NCBI GenBank assembly: GCA_029821875.1
Contig: JALGXW010000025.1
Location: forward strand, 1 to 50,428
DNA length: 50,428 nucleotides
Direction of reading: 5' to 3'
Origin: Candidatus Hebobacterum abditum
GTDB taxonomy: Bacteria > Armatimonadota > Hebobacteria > Hebobacterales > Hebobacteraceae
The notes below the pieces were generated by a model, which worked only from the letters and a program-made list of their open reading frames with translations, did no database searches and was not told the DNA's origin. Of this stretch, positions 20,805 through 49,846 are shown in pieces. Within the stretch, counting starts at the first letter, position 1. Every line of letters begins with the position of its first letter. The translations under genes and the position numbers were made by a program.

Positions 20805-21218
20805 ATGGAGCACGACTCGGTATTCGGGGCCTTGGGATTCTGGATACTCCTGCTGGTCATCGTCCTGGTCGCCTGGACCCGCTATCTGCAGCACAAAGAG
20901 ACGATCGAGACGCTGAAGCGGCAGGCGGAGCCTGACCGCGTTGTGTGGGACAGGCAGATCGTCCGACTGCGCAAGGGACTCCTCCTCGCGGTGGGGCTCC
21001 TCGCGATGGGCGCGGGGCTCGGGGCAGGGCTTGCTGTAGTGATGGGAGAAGGGCTGCTCACACCTGAGGTAACCGCCCCCTTTGTGGGCCTTGCAGTCTT
21101 CTTCTTCGCTCTCGGAGCCGGGACCCTACTGCTTCACATCCTGTGGATGCGGCAGGCCAGTGTCGCTCCTGCAGCCGAAGATGAGCAGCCCGAGGAGCCG
21201 GCGGAGCCGGAGCAGTGA
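20805..21218 (+). CDS. Membrane protein, DUF6249-like, sigma-factor operon
   Basis: 137 aa with three predicted helices: ALGFWILLLVIVLVAW (residues 9-24), GLLLAVGLLAMGAGLGAGLAVV, and PFVGLAVFFFALGAGTLLLHILW. Between the first two lies a charged loop (HKETIETLKRQAEPDRVVW) like that in DUF6249 proteins, which often sit beside ECF sigma genes. The acidic C-terminus ends EEPAEPEQ. GAGGAG precedes the ATG by 6 nt. Its stop overlaps the GTG of the sigma gene by 4 nt. Probably part of the membrane sensing unit; inference. Confidence 0.65.
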   Translation: MEHDSVFGALGFWILLLVIVLVAWTRYLQHKETIETLKRQAEPDRVVWDRQIVRLRKGLLLAVGLLAMGAGLGAGLAVVMGEGLLTPEVTAPFVGLAVFFFALGAGTLLLHILWMRQASVAPAAEDEQPEEPAEPEQ

Positions 21219-21829
21219 TAGCCGCTCTGGCGCGCTCGGCGAACCTCGCTCTCCTCGCGCTGGGCGGCCGCACCTCGGACGACGACACGGCGCTGGTGGC
21301 GAGGGCGCGGGAGGGCGATCCCTCCGGCTTCGACGAGATCGTGCGCCGCCACCACAAGCGCGTCTACACCCTCGCCTATCGCATGCTGCATCATCCTGAG
21401 GAGGCGGAGGACGTCACCCAAGAGGCCTTCCTCAATGCCTACCAGCGCCTCTCCCAGCTGCGCGAGGCCGAGTCGGTCGGCGCCTGGGTCTGCCGCATCG
21501 CGTCAAACCTGTGTCTCGACCGGCTGCGCTCGCCCCGCCGTGACACCGAAGTCCCAATGCCCTCGCCCGACCTCGCGCCGGCCGACCCGGCCGACGACGA
21601 CGAGGGAACGTCCGAGACCGTCGAGCGCATCCGGGCCGCGGTGGCCGAGCTGCCGCCCAAGTACCGGCTTGCAGTGGTCGCCTACTATCTGCGCGGGCAC
21701 ACCTACGAGGAGGCAGCGCGCCTGATCGGGGTGAACGTGCGCACCTTCAAGACCCACCTCTACCGCGCACGCCAGCGCTTGATCGCCATGCTCAAGGACT
21801 CGACACAGGCCCGGGGGGAGCCGCCATGA
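21215..21829 (+). CDS. ECF-type RNA polymerase sigma factor
   Basis: 204 aa with region 2 (DDTALVARAREGDPSGFDEIVRRHHKRVYTLAYRML, AEDVTQEAFLNAYQRL, core-binding and -10 recognition) and region 4 (ELPPKYRLAVVAYYLRGHTYEEAARLIGVNVRTFKTHLYRARQRL, -35 recognition helix-turn-helix). The GTG start overlaps the preceding stop (GTGA) and the stop overlaps the anti-sigma start (ATGA), so the three genes are translationally coupled. It may read sigma-E-like promoters such as those upstream of the SLH genes at 41.6 and 44.2 kb; that link is speculative. Confidence 0.94.
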   Translation: MIAALARSANLALLALGGRTSDDDTALVARAREGDPSGFDEIVRRHHKRVYTLAYRMLHHPEEAEDVTQEAFLNAYQRLSQLREAESVGAWVCRIASNLCLDRLRSPRRDTEVPMPSPDLAPADPADDDEGTSETVERIRAAVAELPPKYRLAVVAYYLRGHTYEEAARLIGVNVRTFKTHLYRARQRLIAMLKDSTQARGEPP

Positions 21830-22257
21830 GGTGCCGCAAGGCGCGAGCGAACCTGCAGGCGCTTCTCGATGGGGCGCTGCCGGCGAGCGACGAGGCGCGA
21901 CTGCGCGATCACCTCGCGGCCTGCGAGCCATGCCGCGGTCACTTGAACTCACTGCGGCTCGTCGATGAGGCGCTCTCCACCCAGCCCGAGGCGGAACCGC
22001 GGCCCGAGCTGGCGCCGGCCATCATGGCCCACGCGAGGGCACAGCGCGGCCGACGGCGGCCGCTGGTACCCATATGGCTGGAGGGATGGACGCTCGCTTC
22101 GGCGGCACTCGGTCTGGCGGCCTGCGGCCTGGCGGCGTCGCGCTTCCTTCCCGCGGCCGGACTGCCTGACGAGCTGGCCGTGCAGGCCAGCGGCCTGCTT
22201 CCCGTCGCCCTCGTCGCAGCCTTCGGCCTCTTCGGGGTGTGGTACTACCGGGCCTAA
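21826..22257 (+). CDS. Zinc-finger (zf-HC2) anti-sigma factor
   Basis: 143 aa. The N-terminal domain has the anti-sigma zinc motif HLAACEPCRGHL (HxxxCxxC, about residues 28-37) with an upstream Cys (MRCRKARANL). Two membrane helices follow (LASAALGLAACGLAASRFL and LLPVALVAAFGLFGVWYY), placing the finger in the cytoplasm where it would hold the sigma factor. Overlaps the sigma gene by 4 nt. The periplasmic part is very short, so the signal may come through the first gene of the triad; inference. Confidence 0.9.
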   Translation: MRCRKARANLQALLDGALPASDEARLRDHLAACEPCRGHLNSLRLVDEALSTQPEAEPRPELAPAIMAHARAQRGRRRPLVPIWLEGWTLASAALGLAACGLAASRFLPAAGLPDELAVQASGLLPVALVAAFGLFGVWYYRA

Positions 22258-36786: not shown

Positions 36787-39459
36787 CTAGTCTTTGCCTC
36801 GTATCCGCGCCAACATCTGTGCATCAACCACCACTGTGAACTCGGGGCTGTAGTCGGCGACGAACACCCACACGTTGTGCGCCTCCCAGCCCGGGATGGT
36901 GCTCCACGTCGTTCCGGGCTTCATCACATAGCGCACGACCACTTCGTCCTTCGTTCCCGGGCGGGCGAACAGGAGGCGCGGGTGGAGGTATGTCTCGAGG
37001 GCCGCGACCAAGCTGCGGCCGTCAGTCGCCGCGGGGAAACGGTTGTTGTGATCCCCGAGGTAGGCGCGCATGGCCAGCGCGAGGTGCTCCATGTTCACGA
37101 GAACCGCAGTGAGTGCCCAGCCGCCGCCTCCCGATCCGCTACCTCCTGAGGGCCTGCTCTCCGCGTGACCGTCCGCATAGGCAACGACGCGGAGACCCGG
37201 GAGGGTCGCGCATGTCGCCTCCGCGAAGGGGGTCTCCGCGGCCTTCTCCGGCGCCACGGCCGCGCCGGAGCGGGCGAGGTACCGCACATCGAGGGGATCG
37301 CCGATGGTGGCGTGAACCAGGATGCTCTCCGGCGCCAGGTACAGGCCGAGCCGCCTCAGCAGCTCATCGACGGTCTCTCCCTTGGGGAATATGCCCGCGT
37401 GCTCCAGGAGGTAGCTTCTCATGGCGAGTCCCAGCCGCTGCATGTTGCTCTGCACGTGGAGCGCCTCCGGCATGAAGTCCACATCGGCCGCCACAACGTT
37501 CCGGCCAGCCGCACCGCGGCCACCACCTCCGCCACCACCTCCGCCGCCTCCTCGACCGCCGGCTCTGCCGCTGGCCACGCCACTTCCGCCGCCTTCGGCC
37601 ACGCCTCCCAGATGCCAGTCGAGGCCTCCCGTCGGCTGCAAACGGCGATCGTATTCTTCGTACCTAAACGGTAGCTCTCCGGACAGGATGGCACCGTCCT
37701 TTAGGGTGAGCCTGTACGGGATCGTGGGACGGCCCCACTCCCCCTCGAAGACATCGCCCAGTTCGACCCGCACTATGGGGTTCCGTCTGAGAGTGGTGCA
37801 GACCTCAGCTACCCAGCCCGGATAGTCCATATCGACACAGTAGTATCCGGCTCCCAGAGGCGGAGGGAACTCCTTCCACACATCCTGCTTGGTGGAGTTC
37901 AGGAAGTAGTCGTAGTCGGCGCCCTGGATAGCCTCGAAGAGCACCTCGGCCATCATGACGACCTCCCCCGGATGCGCCAGGGCCTCCTCGTACTTCTCTG
38001 CCCGGGCCGCTGCATCGGCCTTTGGCACGAGTATGGCGTGCCCGTCCATGTAGGCCTCCACCCGCCACTCGGGGTGGTAGTCCACGACGGCCATCAATGT
38101 ACTCGCCGGCGTCTCGACCGAGCTGTACGGCAGGCCAGGCTCGAAGGTGAACTGCACGGCCGGCTCGACTGTGCCCGGCCGCAGGAAGACAGACTGCTCC
38201 TTCACATACGGAGCCAATACCCCTATCAGCTCAACTGCGTCGCTGGTGCTCGGTAGCACGTGGTCGTGCTCGGCCATGAACATATGCACCGCCAGCGCCA
38301 CGTTCTTCATGTTGCTGAGCACCTGCACGGCTTCGCTTCGCGTCGGCTCCACCAGCCACGAGTAGCGCGAATCAGACCGGCCTCCTCCGCCGCCACCGGT
38401 TGAGCGCACCTCGACGGCCGCGAAAGCAACCGCCGCGAGAATCACAACTGCTGCCAGAACAAGCCATGCGACGCGACTGATACGGCTGACTCTGTGTCCC
38501 CTCATGATCGCCTCCACCCGCCTGAGCAGAGTGAACTTCCCTTCCGCGACTCCGACGGACGCCACCGCAAGCTCGCCACGCACCCTCTCCGCCGCCGCCA
38601 ACAGCGAGAGAGCATACCTGCGCGGGTCGGCGTCCTTTGCCAGCGCGGCCGCGTCGCAGAGCTCCTCTCTCGCCAACGTGATCCGCCGGCCGGCCAGCCA
38701 GGCCGCCGGATGGAAGAAGAGGGGCAGCTCGGCCAGGCGCTGGAGCAGGTTTTCCAGGAAGTCGCCCCGCTTGATATGGGCCACCTCGTGCGCGAGCACG
38801 GCGCGCAGGTCGGCCGGCGACAGCGAGTCGAGCCACTCCTGCGGAATGAGAACCGCCGGCCACCTGAGCCCGTAGAGCAGAGGCGCGCTCAGCTCTGCAG
38901 TGCTGCGCAGGGCCACCTTCCGGCGCACGCCTGCTTCCGCGCACAGCGCGTCGAGCAGTTCCGATGCCTCAGCATCATCCACCGGCCGGCTGGCAGCGAT
39001 CATCGACCGCAGCGACCTGTGGCCCAGCAGCAGGCGGGCGGCTACGACCGTGCACCCCACCAACCAGACCGCCATCAGCGCCGCGCTCAGTGGGATCCGA
39101 GAGCGTGTTCGCGTGCCCGCCCGGCGTGCGGCAGGCGCGAGGGCCGGCGCCTCGCGCCCGACCCTCGGCTGCAGGGCCGTTGGCGCGAGCGATTGCGCGA
39201 ACTCGACCGCGCGGACCATCGGCTGCGGGGCCGGCACGGTCACTCTGGCCGCGCTGCGCTCCAGCACCAGGCGCGCCGGAGCGAGAACCAGCGGCGCCAC
39301 GAGCACGATCCACCACAGCGAGTGTCGCGCCCGCGCCTGCGTCACCCGCAGCACCCGCTCGCAGGCGAGCACCAACACCGCAAGGAGGGCCGCCTGCCAC
39401 ACGACCGTCAGCATGACGGGGCCCCACACGTCGGCCAATCTCTGCATAGCGACCATCAT
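36787..39459 (-). CDS. BlaR1/MecR1-type M56 metalloprotease with three prepilin-like (H-X9-DG) modules
   Basis: 890 aa. Residues 1-350 are a BlaR1-type membrane protease: helices near residues 12-33, 47-65, 122-145 and 330-350, with the zinc motif HEVAH (about 224-228) and the downstream Glu in REELCDAAAL. The penicillin-binding sensor of BlaR1 is absent. Instead there are three related modules: about 380-475 (LSNMKNVALAVHMFMAEHDH, H-X9-DG at YHPEWRVEAYMDGH), 665-765 (SNMQRLGLAMRSYLLEH) and 780-885 (VNMEHLALAMRAYLGDHNN), resembling prepilin globular domains. A separate module (500-617) recurs in the next gene. Linkers are poly-Gly. It follows the BlaI gene by 10 nt. Confidence 0.85.
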   Translation of the reverse strand: MMVAMQRLADVWGPVMLTVVWQAALLAVLVLACERVLRVTQARARHSLWWIVLVAPLVLAPARLVLERSAARVTVPAPQPMVRAVEFAQSLAPTALQPRVGREAPALAPAARRAGTRTRSRIPLSAALMAVWLVGCTVVAARLLLGHRSLRSMIAASRPVDDAEASELLDALCAEAGVRRKVALRSTAELSAPLLYGLRWPAVLIPQEWLDSLSPADLRAVLAHEVAHIKRGDFLENLLQRLAELPLFFHPAAWLAGRRITLAREELCDAAALAKDADPRRYALSLLAAAERVRGELAVASVGVAEGKFTLLRRVEAIMRGHRVSRISRVAWLVLAAVVILAAVAFAAVEVRSTGGGGGGRSDSRYSWLVEPTRSEAVQVLSNMKNVALAVHMFMAEHDHVLPSTSDAVELIGVLAPYVKEQSVFLRPGTVEPAVQFTFEPGLPYSSVETPASTLMAVVDYHPEWRVEAYMDGHAILVPKADAAARAEKYEEALAHPGEVVMMAEVLFEAIQGADYDYFLNSTKQDVWKEFPPPLGAGYYCVDMDYPGWVAEVCTTLRRNPIVRVELGDVFEGEWGRPTIPYRLTLKDGAILSGELPFRYEEYDRRLQPTGGLDWHLGGVAEGGGSGVASGRAGGRGGGGGGGGGGGRGAAGRNVVAADVDFMPEALHVQSNMQRLGLAMRSYLLEHAGIFPKGETVDELLRRLGLYLAPESILVHATIGDPLDVRYLARSGAAVAPEKAAETPFAEATCATLPGLRVVAYADGHAESRPSGGSGSGGGGWALTAVLVNMEHLALAMRAYLGDHNNRFPAATDGRSLVAALETYLHPRLLFARPGTKDEVVVRYVMKPGTTWSTIPGWEAHNVWVFVADYSPEFTVVVDAQMLARIRGKD
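37518..37551. repeat. Short tandem repeat encoding poly-Gly linker
   Basis: Two and a half copies of a 12-nt unit (GCCACCACCTCC on the plus strand) encode the Gly run of the protease linker. Units of 12 nt keep frame, so slippage would change linker length only. Confidence 0.6.
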
Positions 39460-39469
39460 CGTGCCCCCG

Positions 39470-39850
39470 CTACTTCTTTCTCTTTGTGATGAGCTTCCTG
39501 ATGCGACTCAGCTCCTCGTCGGACAGAGACGGGTCGTCGAGCAGCCGTACCACCAGCGCCTCGGGGGACCCGCGGAAGGCGCTCGACACCAAATCGCGCA
39601 GGAGCCCCCTCTTCACCGACCGTTCCTGGAGGCGGGTCCGGTAGACGTGGGCCCGGCCTCGCTCGTCGCGGTCGAGGTAGCCCTTCTCGTGCATGTGTCT
39701 CATCATGATGAGCACAGTCATATAGGTGGGCCGTGGCTCCACGTCGAGCTGCTCCAGCACGTCGCGGACGGTGGAGGGGCCGCGCTCCCACAGCACATTG
39801 AGTATCAGCAGCTCCAGATCTCCCAGCTTCCTATCCGGTCGCCTGCGCAT
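39470..39850 (-). CDS. BlaI/MecI-family transcriptional repressor
   Basis: 126 aa winged-helix repressor. DLELLILNVLWERGPSTVRDVLEQL (helices 1-2), PTYMTVLIMMRHMHEKGYLDRDERGRAHVY (recognition helix and wing) and a C-terminal dimer region (SFRGSPEALVVRLL, LSDEELSRIRKLI) are typical. In the classical system BlaR1 triggers cleavage of BlaI within its dimer domain. It is followed by the M56 protease after 10 nt and is expressed from the promoter at 39887-39915. No TACA/TGTA-type Bla operator is visible; a small TTATATAA palindrome lies just past the predicted start point. Confidence 0.93.
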   Translation of the reverse strand: MRRRPDRKLGDLELLILNVLWERGPSTVRDVLEQLDVEPRPTYMTVLIMMRHMHEKGYLDRDERGRAHVYRTRLQERSVKRGLLRDLVSSAFRGSPEALVVRLLDDPSLSDEELSRIRKLITKRKK

Positions 39851-40060: not shown

Positions 40061-41551
40061 ATGAAGGCTCTCCGACTTCTCCTCCCGTTCGCTATCCTGC
40101 TGTATGTGTGTGCCGCTCCTGCGCTTGGCGAGCAGGTCGTGGAAGTGTGGCGGGGAGGTGGGTTCCAGCTGGTCAGCGATCTCTGCGTCGACCCCACCGA
40201 CGGGTCCTGTTGGGTCGGCCACTACCTCGGGCTCGTGCACCTGGCCGCGGACGGAACGGAGCTCTATCGGAGAGACAGTGGCTGGCCCACCTCCGTCTCC
40301 GTGAACCCGACGGACGGGTCATGTTGGATGAGCGATCACCCTGATCTGGTGCACGTCGCTGCCAACGGTACGGAGCTTTGGCGAGCAGAGGAGTACTCCT
40401 GCAGGTCCGTATCCGTGAACCCAACCGATAGTACCTGCTGGACCGCTGGAACCGGGGGCGTCAGGCATCTCGATGAGGACGGCACCGAGCTGGTAAGCGT
40501 CGCCAGCTTTGCCGACGCGGCATCGGTGTCTGTGGATCCCGTAGACGGGTCCTGCTGGGTAGCAGACATCCAGGGTGACGAGGTGGTGCATCTAGCAGAG
40601 GATGGAATTGAGTTGTGGCGAGGAGGGGGCTTCCATCAACCCTCGTTGGTATGCGTGAACGCGGCAGATGGCTCCTGCTGGGTCATTGACGGAGCCAACG
40701 GGTACGCAGTCCACCTGAGGGCAGATGGCACTGAGTTGCTGCGCATCGGGGGAGTGGAGTTCGGGTCCTTCAATTGGATATCCGTCGACCCTGCGGACGG
40801 TTCCGTCTGGGTGGCTGACGGTATGAACGAGCAAGTTGCCCACCTTGCTGAGGACGGCGCCGAGCTCTGGCACGGAGGGTACTTCCCTGGTGCGGAGTGC
40901 GTCTCTGTGAACCCGGCAGACGGTTCCTGCTGGGTAGCGGCACGCACGCACGGTGAGGTGGCGCACCTGGTGATTGCCTCACCGTTCAGCGACGTAGGCA
41001 TGGAGCACTGGGCGAGGGACGAGATCGTCGCTTGCGTGGACGCTGGCATCGTTGCCGGCTATGGCGACGGTACGTATCAACCCGGCAATCCCGTGACCCG
41101 CGACCAGATGGCGGTCTACATCTCCCGCGCCCTGGCCGGCGGGGACGACAACGTGCCGGACTACACAGACACGCCGACCTTCCCCGATGTCGCGGAGGGA
41201 TTCTGGGCGCTCAAGTACGTGGAGTATGCGGTCTCCCAGAACGTCGTCGCGGGCTACCTCGATGGCACCTACCATCCTGAGCATCAGGTCACGCGTGACC
41301 AGATGGCAGTGTACGTGGCACGTTCCATCTGCGACCCAACCGGCGAAGATGGCCTGGCCGACTACACGCCAGCTGACCCCCGCAACTTCCCCGATGTGGC
41401 CTCCGGCTTCTGGTCCTACAAGCACGTCGAGTACTGTGTTGAGAACGGCGTGGTGGCAGGCTACCTCGACGGCCTCTACCACCCCGAGATCGTCGTCACA
41501 CGGGACCAGATGGCCGTCTACGTGGCGAGGGCGTTCGGGTTGGCGGGGTAG
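40061..41551 (+). CDS. Secreted seven-blade propeller protein with three SLH domains
   Basis: 496 aa. Signal peptide MKALRLLLPFAILLYVCAAPALG (cleavage about residue 23). Seven copies of a 37-44-residue repeat follow (core VSVNPxDGSCWVxD...VHLAEDGTELWR), so one seven-bladed beta-propeller is likely; Cys is kept in six of seven blades. Residues about 310-496 are three SLH domains (FSDVGMEHWARDEIVACVDA, FPDVAEGFWALKYVEYAV, FPDVASGFWSYKHVEYCVEN), each with a TRDQMAVY motif. It would be anchored at the cell surface or outer-membrane/peptidoglycan interface. ATG 40061 follows GAGGGG. Related to the next two genes. Confidence 0.88.
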   Translation: MKALRLLLPFAILLYVCAAPALGEQVVEVWRGGGFQLVSDLCVDPTDGSCWVGHYLGLVHLAADGTELYRRDSGWPTSVSVNPTDGSCWMSDHPDLVHVAANGTELWRAEEYSCRSVSVNPTDSTCWTAGTGGVRHLDEDGTELVSVASFADAASVSVDPVDGSCWVADIQGDEVVHLAEDGIELWRGGGFHQPSLVCVNAADGSCWVIDGANGYAVHLRADGTELLRIGGVEFGSFNWISVDPADGSVWVADGMNEQVAHLAEDGAELWHGGYFPGAECVSVNPADGSCWVAARTHGEVAHLVIASPFSDVGMEHWARDEIVACVDAGIVAGYGDGTYQPGNPVTRDQMAVYISRALAGGDDNVPDYTDTPTFPDVAEGFWALKYVEYAVSQNVVAGYLDGTYHPEHQVTRDQMAVYVARSICDPTGEDGLADYTPADPRNFPDVASGFWSYKHVEYCVENGVVAGYLDGLYHPEIVVTRDQMAVYVARAFGLAG

Positions 41552-41563
41552 CCGCGGCCGCGA

Positions 41564-41591
41564 GAACTTTTGGCCAGCGCGCCGCGTCTAA
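41564..41591 (+). promoter_or_regulatory. Sigma-E-like promoter upstream of the second SLH gene
   Basis: GAACTT (41564-41569), exactly 16 nt, GTCTAA (41586-41591). The same pair with the same spacing and a shared CGCCGC before the -10 is found upstream of the third SLH gene. It resembles ECF/sigma-E promoters. Predicted start near 41598, 68 nt before the ATG. Confidence 0.6.
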
Positions 41592-41665
41592 CTATGTAGA
41601 GAACCTCCGCCTCTCGCAGCCGGGCCTCGGGTCGAGCAGGGCGGCAAGGAGAGAGGTGAGCTATC

Positions 41666-44107
41666 ATGATCGCTCATCGCACGCTGCGGTATCACTGCCT
41701 CGCGGCGCTGGGCCTCGCTGCCCTCCTGTGGGCAGCGCCAGCGGTCGGGGAAGACATCCCCGCCTTCCAGTACGCGTTCGGCACGCCCGCCATCGAGCCG
41801 GTCTGGTCGGACGATTACCACGATCCGCATCGATATCCGTCTCTTGCAGTAGATGAGTCCTACGTGTACGTCGGCGGCGCCCAGCTCAACGTCTTCACTC
41901 GCGACGGAGAGTGGGTTGACTTCTGGCCCATATCGTCGGACGTGCGGCAGTTGGGTGAGCTGTCAGGGCGCGGCTCGACAGTCTCTATGGCCAGCGATAT
42001 CGCGCTGGCCGCACCGGACCGTGTCTGTGTTCTGGATGCGCCCTACGGGGCGGTTCACGTCTACACCCGGGAGGGCGAGTTCCTGACCGGCTGGGGCGGA
42101 TACGGCGACACGGCCGACACCTTCTCCGCCCCGGCGGCCATCGCGGCCGATGAGTCCTCGGTGTACGTGCTCGACACATATCCGGGGCGAGCGGTGCGCT
42201 TTGATCTGGAGGGGAACTTCCTCAACGCCTGGGACACCCCTGTGCTTCCGGAACCGTACCTCAACTCACCCATCGACATCGCCTCTGACCCAGCGGGCGG
42301 AGTGTGGGTGCTCAACGAGTCGAAGTACTTCTCCGAAGCGGAGCAGGAGTGGACTCGCGACGCCCGATGCTACAAGTATGCGCCGGACGGCTCGGAAGAG
42401 GCGAGCTGGCCGCTCGCGGATGCGTCGGGGTGGTTCGCCATAGGGGCCGATCCGGCAGGTAACGTGTGGGTGCTCGATGACGGCGGCGGCTATCCGAGGA
42501 AGCTTCGGCGCTTCACGCCAGGCGGCGAACTGCTGGTGGCGTTCAGCGCTCCTCAGGGGAGCGGGTACACGCACAACTTCGCGATCTCGCCGGACTCGCA
42601 GCTTGTAGCACTGAATCCCCAGCAGATAGCAGGGGCAGGTTGGGACACGCGAGGTGAGATTCTCTGCCCTGTGGTGTCCCTGGACTTCGAGGGCCAGCCG
42701 CTCGGGAGCTTCGGCGACCAATGGCAGATGCCGGACGTGGGCGCCCTGCTGCTGCCATATCCCTTTGCCGTCGACGCGGCGGGCGCCACCGCCTGCCGGG
42801 CCCATCCCCCGGGATACCGTTATACGCTCCCAGACTACGTCGTCCGGTACGGTCCCGGCGGGGAGCTGGTGGAGGTCGTCGAGACCGAGAAGTGGCCCAT
42901 CTACAATCCGGCGAGCGACACCGTCGAGCTGGTCGAAGCGCCCTGGCAGCCGAACTTCATCGATGGCACGGGAGCCTACTGGATCTACTCAGGGGAATGG
43001 CTCGATTGGCCGCCCGATGACATCGGCGTTCTCGACCTCGTGGTGGAGTCCGCCACGACTCAGGAGACCCTGAGCATCGTGCTGCCCTCGGCCGAGGCCC
43101 CGGAGCCGTCCGGCAACTGCTGCTGCCGCGATGTCGCCGTTCGCCAGGCGCACGACGGCAACATACTCCTCGCGGTGTGGGAGGTCGTGGACGATTACGA
43201 GACGGGTACCACCATGTTCGTTCTCACCGTGACCCGTGACGGCACGGTCCTCAGCTCTGCTACCATCGAGCAGGCGACCTTCGACTGGTACCCGGAGTGT
43301 GTCGAGCAGGACGACGCGGGAAACATCTACATCGGCAACTGGAATGGCGTGTGGAAGTTCTCGGCGAGCGGTGAGTTCATCGGCCGCATCGGCGGCTGGG
43401 GCGGGGAGGGAGACCAGCGCGACGCGCCCGGCTCCCTCGTTCTCGGCGCCCGGGCCATCGATATCGACGCGACCGGCCGCCTGCGAGTGCTCGACTACGA
43501 GGCGAACCGCATCCTGCTCTTCGCCTATACGCCAGGGCCCTTCCCCGACGTCTCCTACTCCCACTGGGCGAAGGAAGCCATTGCGGCCGCGGTCGACGCG
43601 GGAATCGTGTGCGGGTACGGCGACGGCATCTATGGGCCCGGGCTTCCGGTAAGCCGCGACCAGATGGCCGTGTACGTCTCCCGCGCGCTGGTTGGCGGAG
43701 ATGCGAACGTGCCCGAGTTCACCGGCACGCCGAGCTTCTCGGATGTGGGTGAGGAGCATTGGGCGCTCGACTACGTCGAGTACGCCTTCTCTCAGAATGT
43801 CGTGACCGGATATGAGGACGGCCTCTACCACCCCGAGTATGAGGTGACCCGCGACCAGATGGCGGTGTACGTCGCCCGTGCCCTCGTTGCACCGACTGGC
43901 GAGGCCGCCCTCGCCGACCACGTGCCGGCCGAACCGCGCAACTTCCCCGATGTGCCGAGCGATCACTGGGCCTACACACACATCGAGTACTGTGTCGAGA
44001 ACGGCGTGGTGGCCGGCTATCTCGACGGCTACTACCACCCCGAGATCGTCGTCACCCGCGACCAGATGGCGGTGTACGTGGCGAGGGCGTTCGGTCTCAC
44101 TTCGTAG
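41666..44107 (+). CDS. Secreted NHL-type propeller protein with three SLH domains
   Basis: 813 aa. Signal peptide (HRTLRYHCLAALGLAALLWAAPAVG, cleavage about residue 28). The central 600 residues are NHL/6-bladed-propeller-like repeats (SSVYVLDTYPGRAVRFDLEGNFLNAW, AGNVWVLDDGGGYPRKLRRF, AGNIYIGNWNGVWKFSASGEFIG, GRLRVLDYEANRILLFAY), distinct from the DGSCW repeats of its neighbours. An insert of about 150 residues (GNCCCRDVAVRQAHDGN) has three adjacent Cys. The C-terminus has three SLH domains (FPDVSYSHWAKEAI, FSDVGEEHWALDYVEYAF, FPDVPSDHWAYTHIEYCVEN). GAGG-type ribosome site before ATG 41666. Surface-anchored; ligand unknown. Confidence 0.87.
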   Translation: MIAHRTLRYHCLAALGLAALLWAAPAVGEDIPAFQYAFGTPAIEPVWSDDYHDPHRYPSLAVDESYVYVGGAQLNVFTRDGEWVDFWPISSDVRQLGELSGRGSTVSMASDIALAAPDRVCVLDAPYGAVHVYTREGEFLTGWGGYGDTADTFSAPAAIAADESSVYVLDTYPGRAVRFDLEGNFLNAWDTPVLPEPYLNSPIDIASDPAGGVWVLNESKYFSEAEQEWTRDARCYKYAPDGSEEASWPLADASGWFAIGADPAGNVWVLDDGGGYPRKLRRFTPGGELLVAFSAPQGSGYTHNFAISPDSQLVALNPQQIAGAGWDTRGEILCPVVSLDFEGQPLGSFGDQWQMPDVGALLLPYPFAVDAAGATACRAHPPGYRYTLPDYVVRYGPGGELVEVVETEKWPIYNPASDTVELVEAPWQPNFIDGTGAYWIYSGEWLDWPPDDIGVLDLVVESATTQETLSIVLPSAEAPEPSGNCCCRDVAVRQAHDGNILLAVWEVVDDYETGTTMFVLTVTRDGTVLSSATIEQATFDWYPECVEQDDAGNIYIGNWNGVWKFSASGEFIGRIGGWGGEGDQRDAPGSLVLGARAIDIDATGRLRVLDYEANRILLFAYTPGPFPDVSYSHWAKEAIAAAVDAGIVCGYGDGIYGPGLPVSRDQMAVYVSRALVGGDANVPEFTGTPSFSDVGEEHWALDYVEYAFSQNVVTGYEDGLYHPEYEVTRDQMAVYVARALVAPTGEAALADHVPAEPRNFPDVPSDHWAYTHIEYCVENGVVAGYLDGYYHPEIVVTRDQMAVYVARAFGLTS

Positions 44108-44140
44108 GAAGCAGACGATCCCCGCGGCGATAGGCCTCAC

Positions 44141-44158
44141 AGGCCGAGGGCCCGGCCT
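44141..44158 (+). terminator. Hairpin after the second SLH gene
   Basis: AGGCCG (44141-44146) pairs with CGGCCT (44153-44158) over a 6-nt loop, followed by TCTTGG. It lies 34 nt after the stop and 20 nt before the next sigma-E-like promoter, which fits separate transcription of the third SLH gene. Confidence 0.4.
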
Positions 44159-44177
44159 TCTTGGCGCCTGGGATCGA

Positions 44178-44205
44178 GAACTTCCCTCCGCTCCGCCGCG
44201 TCTAA
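44178..44205 (+). promoter_or_regulatory. Sigma-E-like promoter upstream of the third SLH gene
   Basis: GAACTT (44178-44183), 16 nt, GTCTAA (44200-44205), identical boxes and spacing to 41564-41591. The flanks share GAGAACTT and CGCCGCGTCTAA, while the rest of the two regions differs. The leader to the ATG at 44334 would be about 120 nt. Confidence 0.6.
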
Positions 44206-44333
44206 TCAATGGTAGGTCTGTGCGCGGCCGTGTCGCCTTCCTGCTGGCGGCGCTCTGCGGCAGCTGAGCATCCATCTTCCCGGCCGCTCCGAGGCCGAAT
44301 CCCGTGTAGCACGCAGTGCCAAGGAGGAAGACA

Positions 44334-46814
44334 ATGGCACGCTGTCATCTGCTGCTCGGATTCGCTGTCGCCCTCATCATCTGCTTCTGCTCCGGCCGTG
44401 CCGTCGCGCTGGAGGTCGTGGAGGCCTATCGCAGCCCTCTTGGGGGCCCGCGCGTGGTGTCGGTGAACCCGACCGATGGCTCCTGCTGGCTGGCCGCGGA
44501 CTCCGGCGTCTTCCACATCGCCTCCGATGGGACCATCCTCAGCCACGACCCCGGCGCCGTCGAGCCTCATGCAGTTGCTGTGAATCCCGCCGATGGGTCC
44601 TGCTGGGTGGTTGAAGGCTCGGAGTGCCCTACACGCCATGAACCCTCTGGCGAGTCCCCGGAGGGCGCGCTGGCCCGCTTGGACGACAGCGGTGCCGAGT
44701 CGCTGCGGGTGCCTTTGACGGTCGGGTCGTGGTTCTGCTGCCCCAACCCGGCGCTGGGTGTCAATCCTGCAGATGGCTCCTGCTGGGTCGGCGAGCGCTT
44801 CACGGGCCAGCTGGTCCATCTGGCCGAGGATGGGACGGAGATCTGGCGAGGTGATTACTTCGAGGCCGGGGCCATATCCGTCAACCCGGCGGACGGTTCC
44901 TGCTGGGTGGCCGATCTGTGGAGCCATGAGCTCATCCACTTGGCCGAGGATGGCACCGAGCTCTGGCGCGGGCTCTGGCTCGACACCCCGCGGTCCGTCG
45001 CTGTCAACCCGACGGACGGTTCCTGCTGGGTGGCCGGAGTGCTTGGCGCCATGGGCGACGCCGTAGTCCACCTCGCCGGAGACGGCACTGAGCTGGTGAG
45101 AGTGGGGCCGTTCGACGGAGCTCTGTCGGTTGCCGTGAACCCGGCCGACGGCTCCTGCTGGATCGCGGACACGACCCATGGGGCAGTGGTCCACCTGGCC
45201 GAGGACGGCAGCGAACTGTGGCGTGACGACACCTTTGTCGCCCCCACCTCGGTGTGCGTCGACCCTACCAATGGGTCATGCTGGGTGGCCGACTCCGCTC
45301 AGGTGGTCCACCTCAGCGAGGAGGGCGAAGTCCTGTGGCGCATGGAGGGCTTCGGATGGCCCTGGGCCGTGTCGACGAACGCCAGCGATGGCTCCTACTG
45401 GGTAACCGATACGTTGCACTATGATAGCGGCGCTGGCTGGCTGGTTCATCTCGCCGAGGATGGCACCGAGCTCTGGCGCGGCGGCGGTTTCGGAACTCCC
45501 TGGTCAGTCTCGGTTGACCCCTCCGATGGCTCCTGCTGGGTTGGCCACTGGCTCTCTGACGAGTCCTCTGTCGGCGACAGTCTGGTCCGCCACCTCGCTG
45601 AGGACGGCGGCGAGCTGTGGCGTGGCACCGAGTTCAGCTGGCCTTTGTCCCTTTCCACGAACTCGACGGATGGCTCCTGCTGGGTGGCCGATGGCGTCGT
45701 GGACACTGCGGCTTCGACTATCGTTCACCTGGCCGGCGACGGCACCGAACTCTGGCGTGGGACCGGATTCGGATGGCCAAACAGTGTCTCTGTAGACTCC
45801 TCGGACGGCTCCTGCTGGGTGTCAGACCAGGCTACGACCGTCATTCACCTGGGAGAGGGTGGCGCTGAGCTGTGGCGCGGCGGGCACGAGTTCAGCGGGA
45901 CGTTCTCGGTATCGGCGAACTCCAGCGATGGCTCCTGCTGGGTGACCGACTGCAACTTCGCCCGATCCCCCGACACTATTAGTTACATAGTCCACCTCGG
46001 CAGGGACGGCACCACACTCTGGCGTGGCGAGGGCCCAGTCTGGTGCGCCTATGCCTCGGTGAACTCCGCCGACGGCTCGTGCTGGATTGCCGCTCCTTGC
46101 GATGGCTATGTTTCCCTGCTGGCCGAGGACGGCTCCGAGCTATGGCGGGGGGACGACTTCGTCCGTCCCAGCGCGGTCTCGGCCAACCCCACCGACAACT
46201 CCTGCTGGGTGGTGGACGGGGGCACCTCTCAGGTCGTGCGCCTAGTGATTCAACGGCCGGCTCTGTTCGGCGATGTGCCCGGAGACTTCTGGGCCTATGA
46301 TGAGATTGGGGCCTGCGACTCCGCCGGCATCGTCAGCGGCTATGAGGACGGAACCTATGACCCGTCGGGTGATGTCGATCGCGCGCAGATGGCCGTCTAC
46401 ATCGCCCGCGCCATGGTCGGCGGGGAGGAGAACATCCCCGAGGCTGGGCGGCCCCGCTCCTTCTTCGACGTGCCTCGGGACCACTGGGCCTTCGATCACA
46501 TCGAGTACCTCAAGGCCGCGGGCGTCGTCACGGGATATACCTCTGGCCTCTACGCGCCCGACCTGTCGGTCCTGCGCGACCAGATGGCCGTCTACATCGC
46601 CCGCGCGAGCGGCTGGGTGACCAACGGGGACGACATGACCGGCACCTCCGAGCTCTTCCCCGACGTGCCGGCCGGGCACTGGGCCGGCGCCGCGATCCAG
46701 GAATGCCTCGACCGCGGCGTCGTGCAGGGCTACGACGACGGCTGCTATCACCCCGAGATCGTCGTCACCCGAGACCAGATGGCGGTGTATATGGCGCGGG
46801 CGTTCGACCTGTAG
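44334..46814 (+). CDS. Secreted fourteen-repeat propeller protein with three SLH domains
   Basis: 826 aa. ATG 44334 has an ideal AAGGAGG site; an upstream GTG is not needed. Signal peptide MARCHLLLGFAVALIICFCSG. Fourteen copies of the DGSCW repeat (VSVNPxDGSCWVAD...VVHLAEDGTELWRG) span residues about 35-640, which fits two seven-bladed propellers; 13 of 14 keep the Cys (blade 8 has DGSYW). Three SLH domains close the protein (FGDVPGDFWAYDEI, FFDVPRDHWAFDHIEYLK, FPDVPAGHWAGAAIQECL), the last ending HPEIVVTRDQMAVYMARAF as in its neighbours. It looks like an internal doubling of the first SLH protein. Confidence 0.88.
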   Translation: MARCHLLLGFAVALIICFCSGRAVALEVVEAYRSPLGGPRVVSVNPTDGSCWLAADSGVFHIASDGTILSHDPGAVEPHAVAVNPADGSCWVVEGSECPTRHEPSGESPEGALARLDDSGAESLRVPLTVGSWFCCPNPALGVNPADGSCWVGERFTGQLVHLAEDGTEIWRGDYFEAGAISVNPADGSCWVADLWSHELIHLAEDGTELWRGLWLDTPRSVAVNPTDGSCWVAGVLGAMGDAVVHLAGDGTELVRVGPFDGALSVAVNPADGSCWIADTTHGAVVHLAEDGSELWRDDTFVAPTSVCVDPTNGSCWVADSAQVVHLSEEGEVLWRMEGFGWPWAVSTNASDGSYWVTDTLHYDSGAGWLVHLAEDGTELWRGGGFGTPWSVSVDPSDGSCWVGHWLSDESSVGDSLVRHLAEDGGELWRGTEFSWPLSLSTNSTDGSCWVADGVVDTAASTIVHLAGDGTELWRGTGFGWPNSVSVDSSDGSCWVSDQATTVIHLGEGGAELWRGGHEFSGTFSVSANSSDGSCWVTDCNFARSPDTISYIVHLGRDGTTLWRGEGPVWCAYASVNSADGSCWIAAPCDGYVSLLAEDGSELWRGDDFVRPSAVSANPTDNSCWVVDGGTSQVVRLVIQRPALFGDVPGDFWAYDEIGACDSAGIVSGYEDGTYDPSGDVDRAQMAVYIARAMVGGEENIPEAGRPRSFFDVPRDHWAFDHIEYLKAAGVVTGYTSGLYAPDLSVLRDQMAVYIARASGWVTNGDDMTGTSELFPDVPAGHWAGAAIQECLDRGVVQGYDDGCYHPEIVVTRDQMAVYMARAFDL

Positions 46815-46885: not shown

Positions 46886-46943
46886 TCGCTCGAACCCGAG
46901 AGTGCGGAGACCATCCTGCGCATCACCGCGGGAGTCGAGCGCA

Positions 46944-48344
46944 ATGAAGCGGGACAACCGACGCGAGTTCGTCAGAACGGCCCTTGCGGGCGACCGAGGG
47001 CCCAATGTGATCTTTATTCTGTCCGATGACCAGGGCCCGTGGGCGGCCGGCTGTTACGGCAATCCCGAGATCCGCACCCCGAACATCGACCGCCTCGCCG
47101 CCACCGGCCTGCGCTTCGAGAACTTCTTCGTGGCGACGCCGGTGTGTTCGCCGAGCCGGGCCACACTGCTGACCGGCCGCATCCCCTCCCAGCACGGCGT
47201 GCACGACTGGATCTCCGGCGGCAACGTTGGGCCGGACGCGATCCGTTACATGGAGGGAGAGCAGGCCTACACTCACGTCATGGCGCGCCACGGGTGGACC
47301 TGCGGCATCAGCGGCAAGTGGCACCTGGGCGACTCGCAGATCCCCCAGTGTGGGTTCTCCGACTGGTACGTGCACCAGAGCGGCGGAGGCGACTACAACG
47401 CCGCACCCATGGTGCGGAACGGCCAGCTCATAACCGAGACGCGTTACATCACTGACGTGATCACCGACGAAGCACTGGCCATGCTCGACCGCTACGCGGC
47501 CGCGCAGGCTCCCTTCTACCTCAGTGTCCACTACACCGCGCCGCACTCGCCCTGGACTGGGCATCCCGAGGACGTCGTGCAGTCGTATGATGGCTGCGCG
47601 TTCGAGTCGTGCCCCCAGGAGCCGAGACATCCCTGGGCTATCTCCCTCACCGATCAGTGCCTCGGCAGTCGCGAGATGCTCAAGGGGTACTTCGCGGCCG
47701 TCACCGCCATGGACACGAACATCGGGCGGATCATCGACGCGCTCGAGGCCAAGGGCCTACGGGAGAACACGCTCGTAGTGTTCCTGAGCGACAACGGTTT
47801 CTCGTGCGGGCACCATGGATTCTGGGGCAAGGGCAACGGCACGCTCCCCCGCAACATGTACGAGAACTCGATCAAGGTCCCGGCCGTCTTCTCTCAGCCG
47901 ACCGCTATCCCGCAGAACGAAGTCGCCGACGCCATGGTGTCGGCCTATGACTTCATGCCGACCTTGCTTGACTACCTTGGCCTGCCGATCCCAACTGACT
48001 GCAGCCTTCCCGGCGGCAGCTTCGCGCCGCTGCTGCGCGGCGGCACGGTTGACACCTCCGAGCCCGTCGTCATCTACGACGAGTACGGGCCAGTCCAGAT
48101 GATACGAACCGAGGAATGGAAGTATGTCTACCGGCATGCCCACGGACCTGACGAACTATTGGATCTGCGCAATGACCCCGACGAGCGGGAGAACCTGGCC
48201 GCCGAGCCAGCGCACCAGAAGCAGATGCGCGAGCTGAAGGTGGCCATGGACGAGTGGTTCGCCCGCTACGTCATCCCGAGCCGCGACGGCCTGCGGGAGG
48301 AGGCCCCCGAGGGCGTGCCCGGGCAGAGCTGGTTGGTGAGGTGA
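46944..48344 (+). CDS. Sulfatase (formylglycine-dependent) with truncated Tat signal
   Basis: 466 aa type I sulfatase. Metal site start IFILSDDQGP, the maturation motif CSPSRATLLTGR (CxPSR; Cys becomes formylglycine, about residues 67-78), SGKWHLG, HYTAPHSPW and the late metal motif VFLSDNG. The N-terminus MKRDNRREFVRTALAG keeps the twin-arginine pattern (RREFVR), but the hydrophobic stretch is missing and the catalytic domain begins at once (DRGPNVIF), so export is doubtful. GGGAG precedes ATG 46944. Followed after 20 nt by a second sulfatase, so probably one operon. Substrate unknown; sulfated polysaccharide is likely. Confidence 0.9.
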   Translation: MKRDNRREFVRTALAGDRGPNVIFILSDDQGPWAAGCYGNPEIRTPNIDRLAATGLRFENFFVATPVCSPSRATLLTGRIPSQHGVHDWISGGNVGPDAIRYMEGEQAYTHVMARHGWTCGISGKWHLGDSQIPQCGFSDWYVHQSGGGDYNAAPMVRNGQLITETRYITDVITDEALAMLDRYAAAQAPFYLSVHYTAPHSPWTGHPEDVVQSYDGCAFESCPQEPRHPWAISLTDQCLGSREMLKGYFAAVTAMDTNIGRIIDALEAKGLRENTLVVFLSDNGFSCGHHGFWGKGNGTLPRNMYENSIKVPAVFSQPTAIPQNEVADAMVSAYDFMPTLLDYLGLPIPTDCSLPGGSFAPLLRGGTVDTSEPVVIYDEYGPVQMIRTEEWKYVYRHAHGPDELLDLRNDPDERENLAAEPAHQKQMRELKVAMDEWFARYVIPSRDGLREEAPEGVPGQSWLVR

Positions 48345-48364
48345 GGAGGAGGGGAAAGCGACAG

Positions 48365-49846
48365 ATGAGCAAGCTGACCCGAAGGGACTTCATCAAGACG
48401 GCGCTGGCGGCCTCCGCTGGGCTGACAGCGCTGCGAGGAGAGGTGAGCGTGGCGGAAGCGAACCGCGCAGCGAAGCATCCTAACCTGGTGTTCGTGTTCC
48501 CCGACGAGATGCGCCGCCAGGCCATGGGATGCATGGACGCCGACCCGGTCATCACACCCACCCTCGACCGCCTGGCGAACGACGGCATGGTCCTGACCCA
48601 GGCGGTGAGCAACTTCCCCGTATGCAGCCCTTACCGCGGCATGCTGTTCACCGGCAAGTACCCGTTCTCCAATGGCGTCATCCACAACTGCCTCTCCGCG
48701 CCGTTTTCGAAGACGAGCTACCTGCGGCAAGATGATCGATGCCTGTCCGACGTGCTGAGCGACGCCGGCTACAACTGCGGCTACATCGGCAAGTGGCACC
48801 TCGAGCGGCCGCACGAGCCCTATGTCGAGCCGCCAAGGCCAGGCGATGGCTACGTGTGGGATGAGTTCACTCCGCCCGAGCGCCGTCATGGGTTCGACTT
48901 CTGGTATGCCTACAATTGCTACGACGGGCACATGACGCCGCACTACTGGACCACCGATGCCAGCCGCGACGAGAAGACCGAGATCCGCGAGTGGTCCGTC
49001 AAGCACGAGGCCGACATCGCCATCGACTACATCGAAAACCGCGACGGCAAGCATAGAGATTCGAGCAAGCCGTTCGCGCTCTTCCTCGCCCACAACCCAC
49101 CCCACATGCCCTTCGACCTCGTCCCAGACGAATACGTCGCCAGGTACGGCGACAAGACCTATGCCGACCTCCTAACCCGTCCCAACGTAGACCTCTCCAT
49201 AGAGGACGGCCCCACCGCACAGGCCAAGCGGTGGGTCAAACACTACTTCGCCGCCGTCACCGGCATAGACGAGAACCTAGGCAGAATCCTCGAGTGCCTG
49301 AAGGAACAGGGCCTCGAGGACAACACCATCGTCGTCTTCACCTCCGACCACGGCGAGATGATGGGCAGCCACAACCTCATGCACAAGAACCAGATCTATG
49401 AGGAGTCCTTCGGCGTGCCGTTCCTCATCCGCTATCCGCGGAGGATCGCGGCCCGATCGCGAGACGACATTCTCCTCAGCACGCCCGACGTCATGCCGAC
49501 ACTGCTCGGCCTCATGGCCCTGGCCGCGCAGATTCCGCAGCAGGTCGAAGGCGCGGACCATTCCGATGTGCTCCTCGGCAAGTCCACCCAGCGGCCCGAG
49601 CTGGCAGTCTACATGCATCTCCCGCCCACCAACCTGGCGCGAGGGCGACGCGGCCTGCGCACTCCAGGCTACACAATGGAGATCACGAGGAACGACCGGG
49701 GCGAGAGCGTCAAGCTCTTCGACAACGAGAAGGACCCCTACCAGATGAAGAACATCGCCGACGACAGCCCGGCCGTGGTCGAAGACCTCACCAAGAACCT
49801 AAACGAGGAGCTCGCCCGCATCGGCGACCCGTGGGCCGGCGCCTGA
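48365..49846 (+). CDS. Sulfatase (formylglycine-dependent) with Tat signal peptide
   Basis: 493 aa. The N-terminus MSKLTRRDFIKTALAASAG is a classic Tat signal (RRDFIK plus hydrophobic region), predicting export folded to the periplasm. The sulfatase motifs are LVFVFPDEMRRQ, CSPYRGMLFTG (CxPxR with Tyr for Ser), IGKWHLERP, LAHNPPHMPF and VFTSDHGEMMGSH. The C-terminal LFDNEKDPYQMKNIAD is the usual family tail. GAGGAGGGG precedes ATG 48365. It is paired with the sulfatase upstream, which lacks the hydrophobic part of this signal. Maturation needs a formylglycine-generating enzyme not in the window. Confidence 0.92.
   Translation: MSKLTRRDFIKTALAASAGLTALRGEVSVAEANRAAKHPNLVFVFPDEMRRQAMGCMDADPVITPTLDRLANDGMVLTQAVSNFPVCSPYRGMLFTGKYPFSNGVIHNCLSAPFSKTSYLRQDDRCLSDVLSDAGYNCGYIGKWHLERPHEPYVEPPRPGDGYVWDEFTPPERRHGFDFWYAYNCYDGHMTPHYWTTDASRDEKTEIREWSVKHEADIAIDYIENRDGKHRDSSKPFALFLAHNPPHMPFDLVPDEYVARYGDKTYADLLTRPNVDLSIEDGPTAQAKRWVKHYFAAVTGIDENLGRILECLKEQGLEDNTIVVFTSDHGEMMGSHNLMHKNQIYEESFGVPFLIRYPRRIAARSRDDILLSTPDVMPTLLGLMALAAQIPQQVEGADHSDVLLGKSTQRPELAVYMHLPPTNLARGRRGLRTPGYTMEITRNDRGESVKLFDNEKDPYQMKNIADDSPAVVEDLTKNLNEELARIGDPWAGA

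Follow-up and report, generated by a model that had tools for sequence, protein, structure and literature searches.

Published work gives GGAACTTTT and GTCAAA among the sigma-E sites of Salmonella (PMC1804206), GAACTT-16/17-TCCAAA ahead of rpoE/algU (PMC4336711) and CGTCTAAH as the sigma-E -10 motif of Neisseria meningitidis (PMC2893595). ECF promoters in general have AAC and CGT boxes, and about 55% of ECF factors are predicted to be autoregulated (PMC8103513). The clostridial SigI/RsgI systems control cellulosome and surface-protein genes, and SLH appears in the key of the figure that presents their targets (PMC6056542). The class Hebobacteria was defined from anoxic marine sediment in a paper whose main text contains neither 'sigma' nor 'S-layer' (PMC10290634). 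A search of the open-access literature returned nothing on Armatimonadota sigma factors in connection with ECF promoters, the S-layer or BamA. To our knowledge, the class is represented by metagenome assemblies only.

The window (the whole stretch of DNA that was analyzed, 50,428 nucleotides) contains an array of SLH genes and two predicted promoters, as follows.

40061-41551, + strand: first SLH gene of the array, without a GAACTT-N16-GTCTAA promoter
41564-41591, + strand: predicted promoter 1, with -35 GAACTT (41564-41569), a 16-nt spacer, -10 GTCTAA (41586-41591) and a CGC extension (41583-41585)
41666-44107, + strand: predicted target gene of promoter 1, with a signal-peptide-like N-terminus, weak NHL/propeller matches and three SLH stretches
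44178-44205, + strand: predicted promoter 2, with -35 GAACTT (44178-44183), a 16-nt spacer, -10 GTCTAA (44200-44205) and a CGC extension
44334-46814, + strand: predicted target gene of promoter 2, a repeat/NHL propeller-like protein (weak NHL/propeller matches) with three SLH stretches

The first-pass annotation had reported identical hexamers with 16-nt spacers at both sites and a common CGCCGC before the -10; both descriptions hold, with the sites on the + strand. The pattern GAACTT-N15-17-GTCTAA occurs nowhere else in the window and gave no match in 100 dinucleotide shuffles; a tolerance of two mismatches adds only two sites, at 1954 on the minus strand and at 42952 within an SLH gene. The two target genes are related and start 74 nt (41666) and 128 nt (44334) downstream of their respective sites. 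The ATG at 44334 is preceded by AAGGAGG, and the listed start of this open reading frame is the GTG at 44316. In the 300 nt upstream of the first SLH gene (40061) the motif scores -1.7 at best, where random 320-nt windows have a 95th percentile of 6.4, and only a CGCCGCGTCATA stretch, without a -35, is seen there. The array is adjoined by a BlaR1-type M56 peptidase and BlaI-type repressor pair (36787-39850, - strand) and is followed by two sulfatase genes (46902-49846, + strand).

The genome to which the window belongs (G000; 4.31 Mb, 103 contigs, 95% complete) was searched for the motif, as the first-pass annotation had proposed. The motif is enriched, with 16 exact matches against none for the reversed pattern; many sites lie before SLH or envelope genes, and three ECF sigma genes are preceded by copies. 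With up to one mismatch, N16 matches number 37, against two for the control. Among 40 relatives, 15 matches were found in the same-genus genome G001 and 0-5 in other family members, with more distant genomes mostly at the control level. The spacing between the boxes is fixed, as in ECF promoters: a search of seven family genomes with gaps of 6-30 nt (25 spacings) placed all 46 matches at N16 (36) or N15 (10), and the reversed control yielded 13 in all. A looser GAAC-N5-30-GCGTCTAA search of four genomes gave 66 matches, 56 of them with N16 spacing by hand count. All 14 exact N16 sites of G000 have C before GTCTAA (CGTCTAA in 14/14); GC is found in 13, CGC in 12 and CCGC in eight. The CGC adjoining GTCTAA is therefore read as an extension of the -10, with the form CGCGTCTAA in 12 of the 14 sites, and the outer bases as less general. 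Each of the 14 combines a -35 containing AAC with a -10 containing (C)GTC, and because the published sigma-E sites and the general AAC/CGT boxes correspond, we assign the motif to the ECF promoter kind.

Placement and targets were analyzed for 38 sites, comprising the 37 N16 sites and the N15 site before pilB; a second exact N15 site (L005), which lies inside a gene, was left out. At a local coding density of 85%, 34 of the 38 lie in intergenic DNA and run in the direction of the gene that follows, so that the ECF promoter feature of lying upstream of and directed at genes is seen in these 34. Three of the others share bases with called genes (in the case of L155, with just the 3' end of the preceding gene), and the fourth, L153, is not co-oriented. 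A strongly hydrophobic, signal-peptide-like N-terminus is predicted for 28 of 37 directly downstream genes, compared with 40 of 151 background genes (Fisher p ~6e-8, with a home-made hydrophobicity cut-off and gene caller and with L153 dropped from the count), and for 12 of the 13 targets of exact N16 sites. A Pfam scan covered the genes at 32 of the 38 sites and found SLH domains in 10 of these 32, six of them at exact sites; several SLH targets also carry PD40, LVIVD, RCC1 plus PKD or NHL repeats. Other scanned targets are PilB, two CarboxypepD_reg proteins, a DUF1559 protein, an alpha-2-macroglobulin (A2M), a VIT/VWA protein and a DUF4349 protein. This target class supports the envelope link of the regulon. 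The remaining site, L153 (G000 C36:24156-24183), is a perfect match, and no gene within 2 kb runs in its direction. It may give rise to a short transcript; the idea of a small-RNA promoter was rejected, with no Rfam match and only one weak terminator-like hairpin close by.

In G001, 10 of the 15 exact sites precede homologs of G000 targets, and several pairs have identical site-to-gene distances (82, 56, 341, 65 and 128 nt). The last of these belongs to the counterpart of window promoter 2 (L197), whose leader is recognizably alike and whose spacer differs. Five family genomes have the pilB site, 43-78 nt upstream of the called start; as both the G001 and the pilB comparisons start from motif hits, hexamer identity is built into them. 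In these five genomes (L163, L191, L201, L202 and L203) pilB retains an N15 site with GTGTCTAA, whose difference from the N16/GCGTCTAA form of the SLH sites hints at two sub-classes. Another ECF gene also has the motif close to its 3' end (G001 C72:14270, G002 C1:128756, G003 C172:20582 and G006 C163:6403). In G001 the match is followed after 15 nt by the start of a gene for an apparent anti-sigma factor; the matches terminate in the apparent stop codon of the ECF gene and may be a coding coincidence.

The motif marks a subset of SLH genes. At least 150 SLH repeats were found in G000, in about 64 genes or more; this gene count comes from grouping 150 entries by hand without three short partial frames, and is a minimum, since 150 of 217 candidates were scored. 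Beyond the 10 motif-bearing loci, 55 further SLH loci were scored (54 genes, as L300 and L316 share a start; L269 was dropped at a contig edge). Only six of the 55 score 12 or more, the 99th percentile of random 320-nt windows being 9.9, and we reject the motif as a general SLH-gene promoter. About 16 of the ~64 SLH genes thus carry the motif, so roughly a quarter would fall in the regulon; with ~48 genes lacking it, the regulon cannot be equated with the SLH genes as a whole. The SLH loci L313, L310, L301, L320, L319 and L181, and also L200 in G001, have in common a palindrome, ACGCGCC-n-GGCGCGT, in nearly identical form. It sits exactly between the -35 and -10 positions, is present as an almost identical spacer element in four of the six additional high-scoring loci, and may represent an operator or a leader that has been copied.

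The genome has 30 sigma genes with a region 2, and about 350 nt before each was scanned for the motif. The features relevant to the candidate readers are the following.

Window, 21215-21829, + strand: window ECF sigma factor, the reader proposed in the first-pass annotation, not supported here
Window, 21826-22257, + strand: zf-HC2 anti-sigma factor, in the same operon as the window ECF
G000 contig C37: ECF-A, own predicted promoter TAACTT-N16-GTCTAA
G000 contig C42: ECF-B, own predicted promoter GAACTT-N16-ATCTAA
G000 C27:79277-79858: ECF-C (L038/L323), own predicted promoter GAACTT-N15-GTCGAA

At the sequence level, ECF-A, ECF-B and ECF-C, and not the window ECF, are preceded by the promoter type in question: none of 200 shuffles reaches the upstream score of any of the three, whereas that of the window ECF (0.6) is reached by 52 of 200. 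ECF-B has the cleanest promoter footprint, with GAACTT kept at the same distance in all six genomes (loci found by protein search) and column conservation of 1.0 for the -35, 0.89 for the -10, 0.61 for the spacer and 0.59 for the flank; the -10 of this promoter reads ATCTAA in four of them and GTCCAA in the other two. The ECF-B protein has its closest named relatives in Armatimonadota assemblies, the top two being Candidatus Hebobacteria with 93 and 74% identity. The ECF-A promoter reads TAAC(T/C)T with GTCTAA in G000, G001 and G002 and takes weaker forms in G008, G010 and G012. With regard to a signalling chain of the RseA/RseB/RseP type, linked anti-sigma genes, of the zinc-finger type only, are seen for ECF-A and ECF-B. 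ECF-C lies between a gene that is TamB-like by our own reading (the piece examined has no Pfam match) and a POTRA/BamA-like gene, and 19 of 21 genomes encode a relative of it with an E-value no worse than 1e-35. Of the 19 Armatimonadota loci examined (L324-L341 included), 16 have a BamA-like gene directly downstream of the ECF sigma gene, and several family members also have a TamB-like gene on its upstream side. A TAGACT box upstream of the ECF-C promoter could be a housekeeping -10. Similarity to E. coli sigma-E amounts to 111 bits for ECF-C, 78 for ECF-B, ~62 for ECF-A and 54 for the window ECF. None of the four passes the RpoE family model (cut-off 236.15; ECF-C 143.9, ECF-B 107.3, ECF-A 93.9, window ECF 76.3), and by this curated sigma model the system would fall outside the RpoE system proper. 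At the positions that we take to mediate -35 recognition in E. coli sigma-E (R171, S172, F175 and R176), alignment by eye gives K, S, F, R for ECF-C, R, S, S, K for ECF-B and K, V, Y, R for ECF-A; these residues would favor ECF-C or ECF-B and are only a lead. No candidate was found in every motif-bearing draft (ECF-A was not found in G003, ECF-C in G001, or ECF-A and ECF-B in G006), so incompleteness or shared recognition must be assumed.

The reading that we favor, with a probability of roughly 0.87, is that both window sites are promoters of an ECF-type (sigma-E-like) regulon of about 35-40 promoters that serves mainly envelope proteins. The sequence features behind it are the motif, its spacing and orientation, the target class, conservation in relatives and the copies before three sigma genes. 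The first-pass annotation had likened the pattern to sigma-E-type ECF promoters, a comparison strengthened by the genome-wide enrichment, fixed spacing, gene-directed orientation and envelope/surface-protein targets. If the sites were instead a conserved operator or a repeat element travelling with duplicated SLH genes, the relatedness of the two window targets and the near-identical longer palindrome overlapping the motif at some SLH genes would find a ready explanation. Sites also stand, however, before unrelated genes (pilB, CarboxypepD_reg, A2M, VWA and DUF4349), their spacers have diverged, the half-sites lack symmetry and the spacing stays fixed when 25 values are allowed, which makes a non-promoter element very improbable.

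As to which factor reads the promoters, the first-pass annotation had pointed to the ECF/anti-sigma operon at 21.2-22.3 kb. The window ECF is an ECF with a linked zf-HC2 anti-sigma factor on the same contig as the sites, and self-regulation is not universal among ECF factors (the ~55% cited above is a prediction; PMC8103513). Nevertheless, no motif with up to two mismatches lies near its operon, its orthologs in G001, G010 and G012 also lack one upstream, about a quarter of shuffles (the 52 of 200) match its score, and of the four ECFs compared it resembles sigma-E least. We reject it on the upstream sequence in G000 and the three orthologs, and a role as reader would be the most improbable of the options considered. 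A better case can be made for ECF-C as a functional sigma-E counterpart that reads both N15 and N16 sites, the whole set being an outer-membrane/envelope stress regulon. Of the four, ECF-C comes closest to AlgU (116 bits) and to E. coli sigma-E, its best NCBIfam match is RpoE, its own GAAC-N15-GTC promoter is kept in 7/7 f1 loci, the BamA-like gene follows in most loci, and the pilB sites have the N15 GTGTC form of its promoter. Against this, its RpoE model score is well below the cut-off, it was not found in G001 despite the 15 exact sites there, its own promoter is N15 and the SLH sites N16, the flank of its own site is almost as conserved as the hexamers, and the interval from ECF-C to the BamA-like gene has no called anti-sigma gene. 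On balance this proposal is possible but rather unlikely. The most likely reader of the N16 sites would be ECF-B, a tentative choice at less than even odds; the bamA-linked ECF-C and, a little less probable again, ECF-A are close alternatives, and other sigma factors take most of what is left.

Under the favored promoter reading, a specialized envelope regulator probably reads a genome-wide promoter set. RNA polymerase with an ECF sigma factor would bind GAACTT and open the DNA at GTCTAA 16 nt on; transcription would start a few bases downstream of GTCTAA and drive the SLH/propeller gene 74 or 128 nt away. The ~35-40 such promoters in the genome would drive mainly exported, lipid-anchored or membrane proteins, and the sigma factor would probably be held by a zinc-finger anti-sigma factor and feed back on its own gene. 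Promoter function in vivo, the identity of the reading sigma factor and the inducing signal are what we infer here. More speculatively, and with considerable doubt, the Armatimonadota may have an envelope response parallel to that of sigma-E, in which a conserved ECF immediately before bamA couples outer-membrane assembly, a remodelled SLH-propeller coat and the type IV pilus machinery.

The analysis provides a concrete promoter code and some 35-40 predicted targets for an alternative sigma factor in Hebobacteria, turns a guess on two promoters into a testable regulon, and indicates a sigma gene adjoining bamA in many Armatimonadota genomes. The system predicted here resembles the sigma-E (RpoE) of E. 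coli and Salmonella and AlgU of Pseudomonas in its -35 GAACTT, fixed spacing, envelope targets and a sigma gene with the same promoter type. It differs from RpoE/AlgU in its -10 (GTCTAA with a CGC extension), in its SLH/propeller and pilus targets, and in that no candidate reader passes the RpoE model cut-off. The clostridial SigI/RsgI systems are alike in having alternative sigma factors, membrane anti-sigma factors and cell-surface protein targets, but SigI lacks a sigma-4 domain, uses A-tract promoters and is not an ECF factor. The sigma-E -10 of Neisseria meningitidis, CGTCTAAH, equals the extended -10 described here, whereas its -35 (GTMAGBWTT) and its spacing of 12-13 nt are different.
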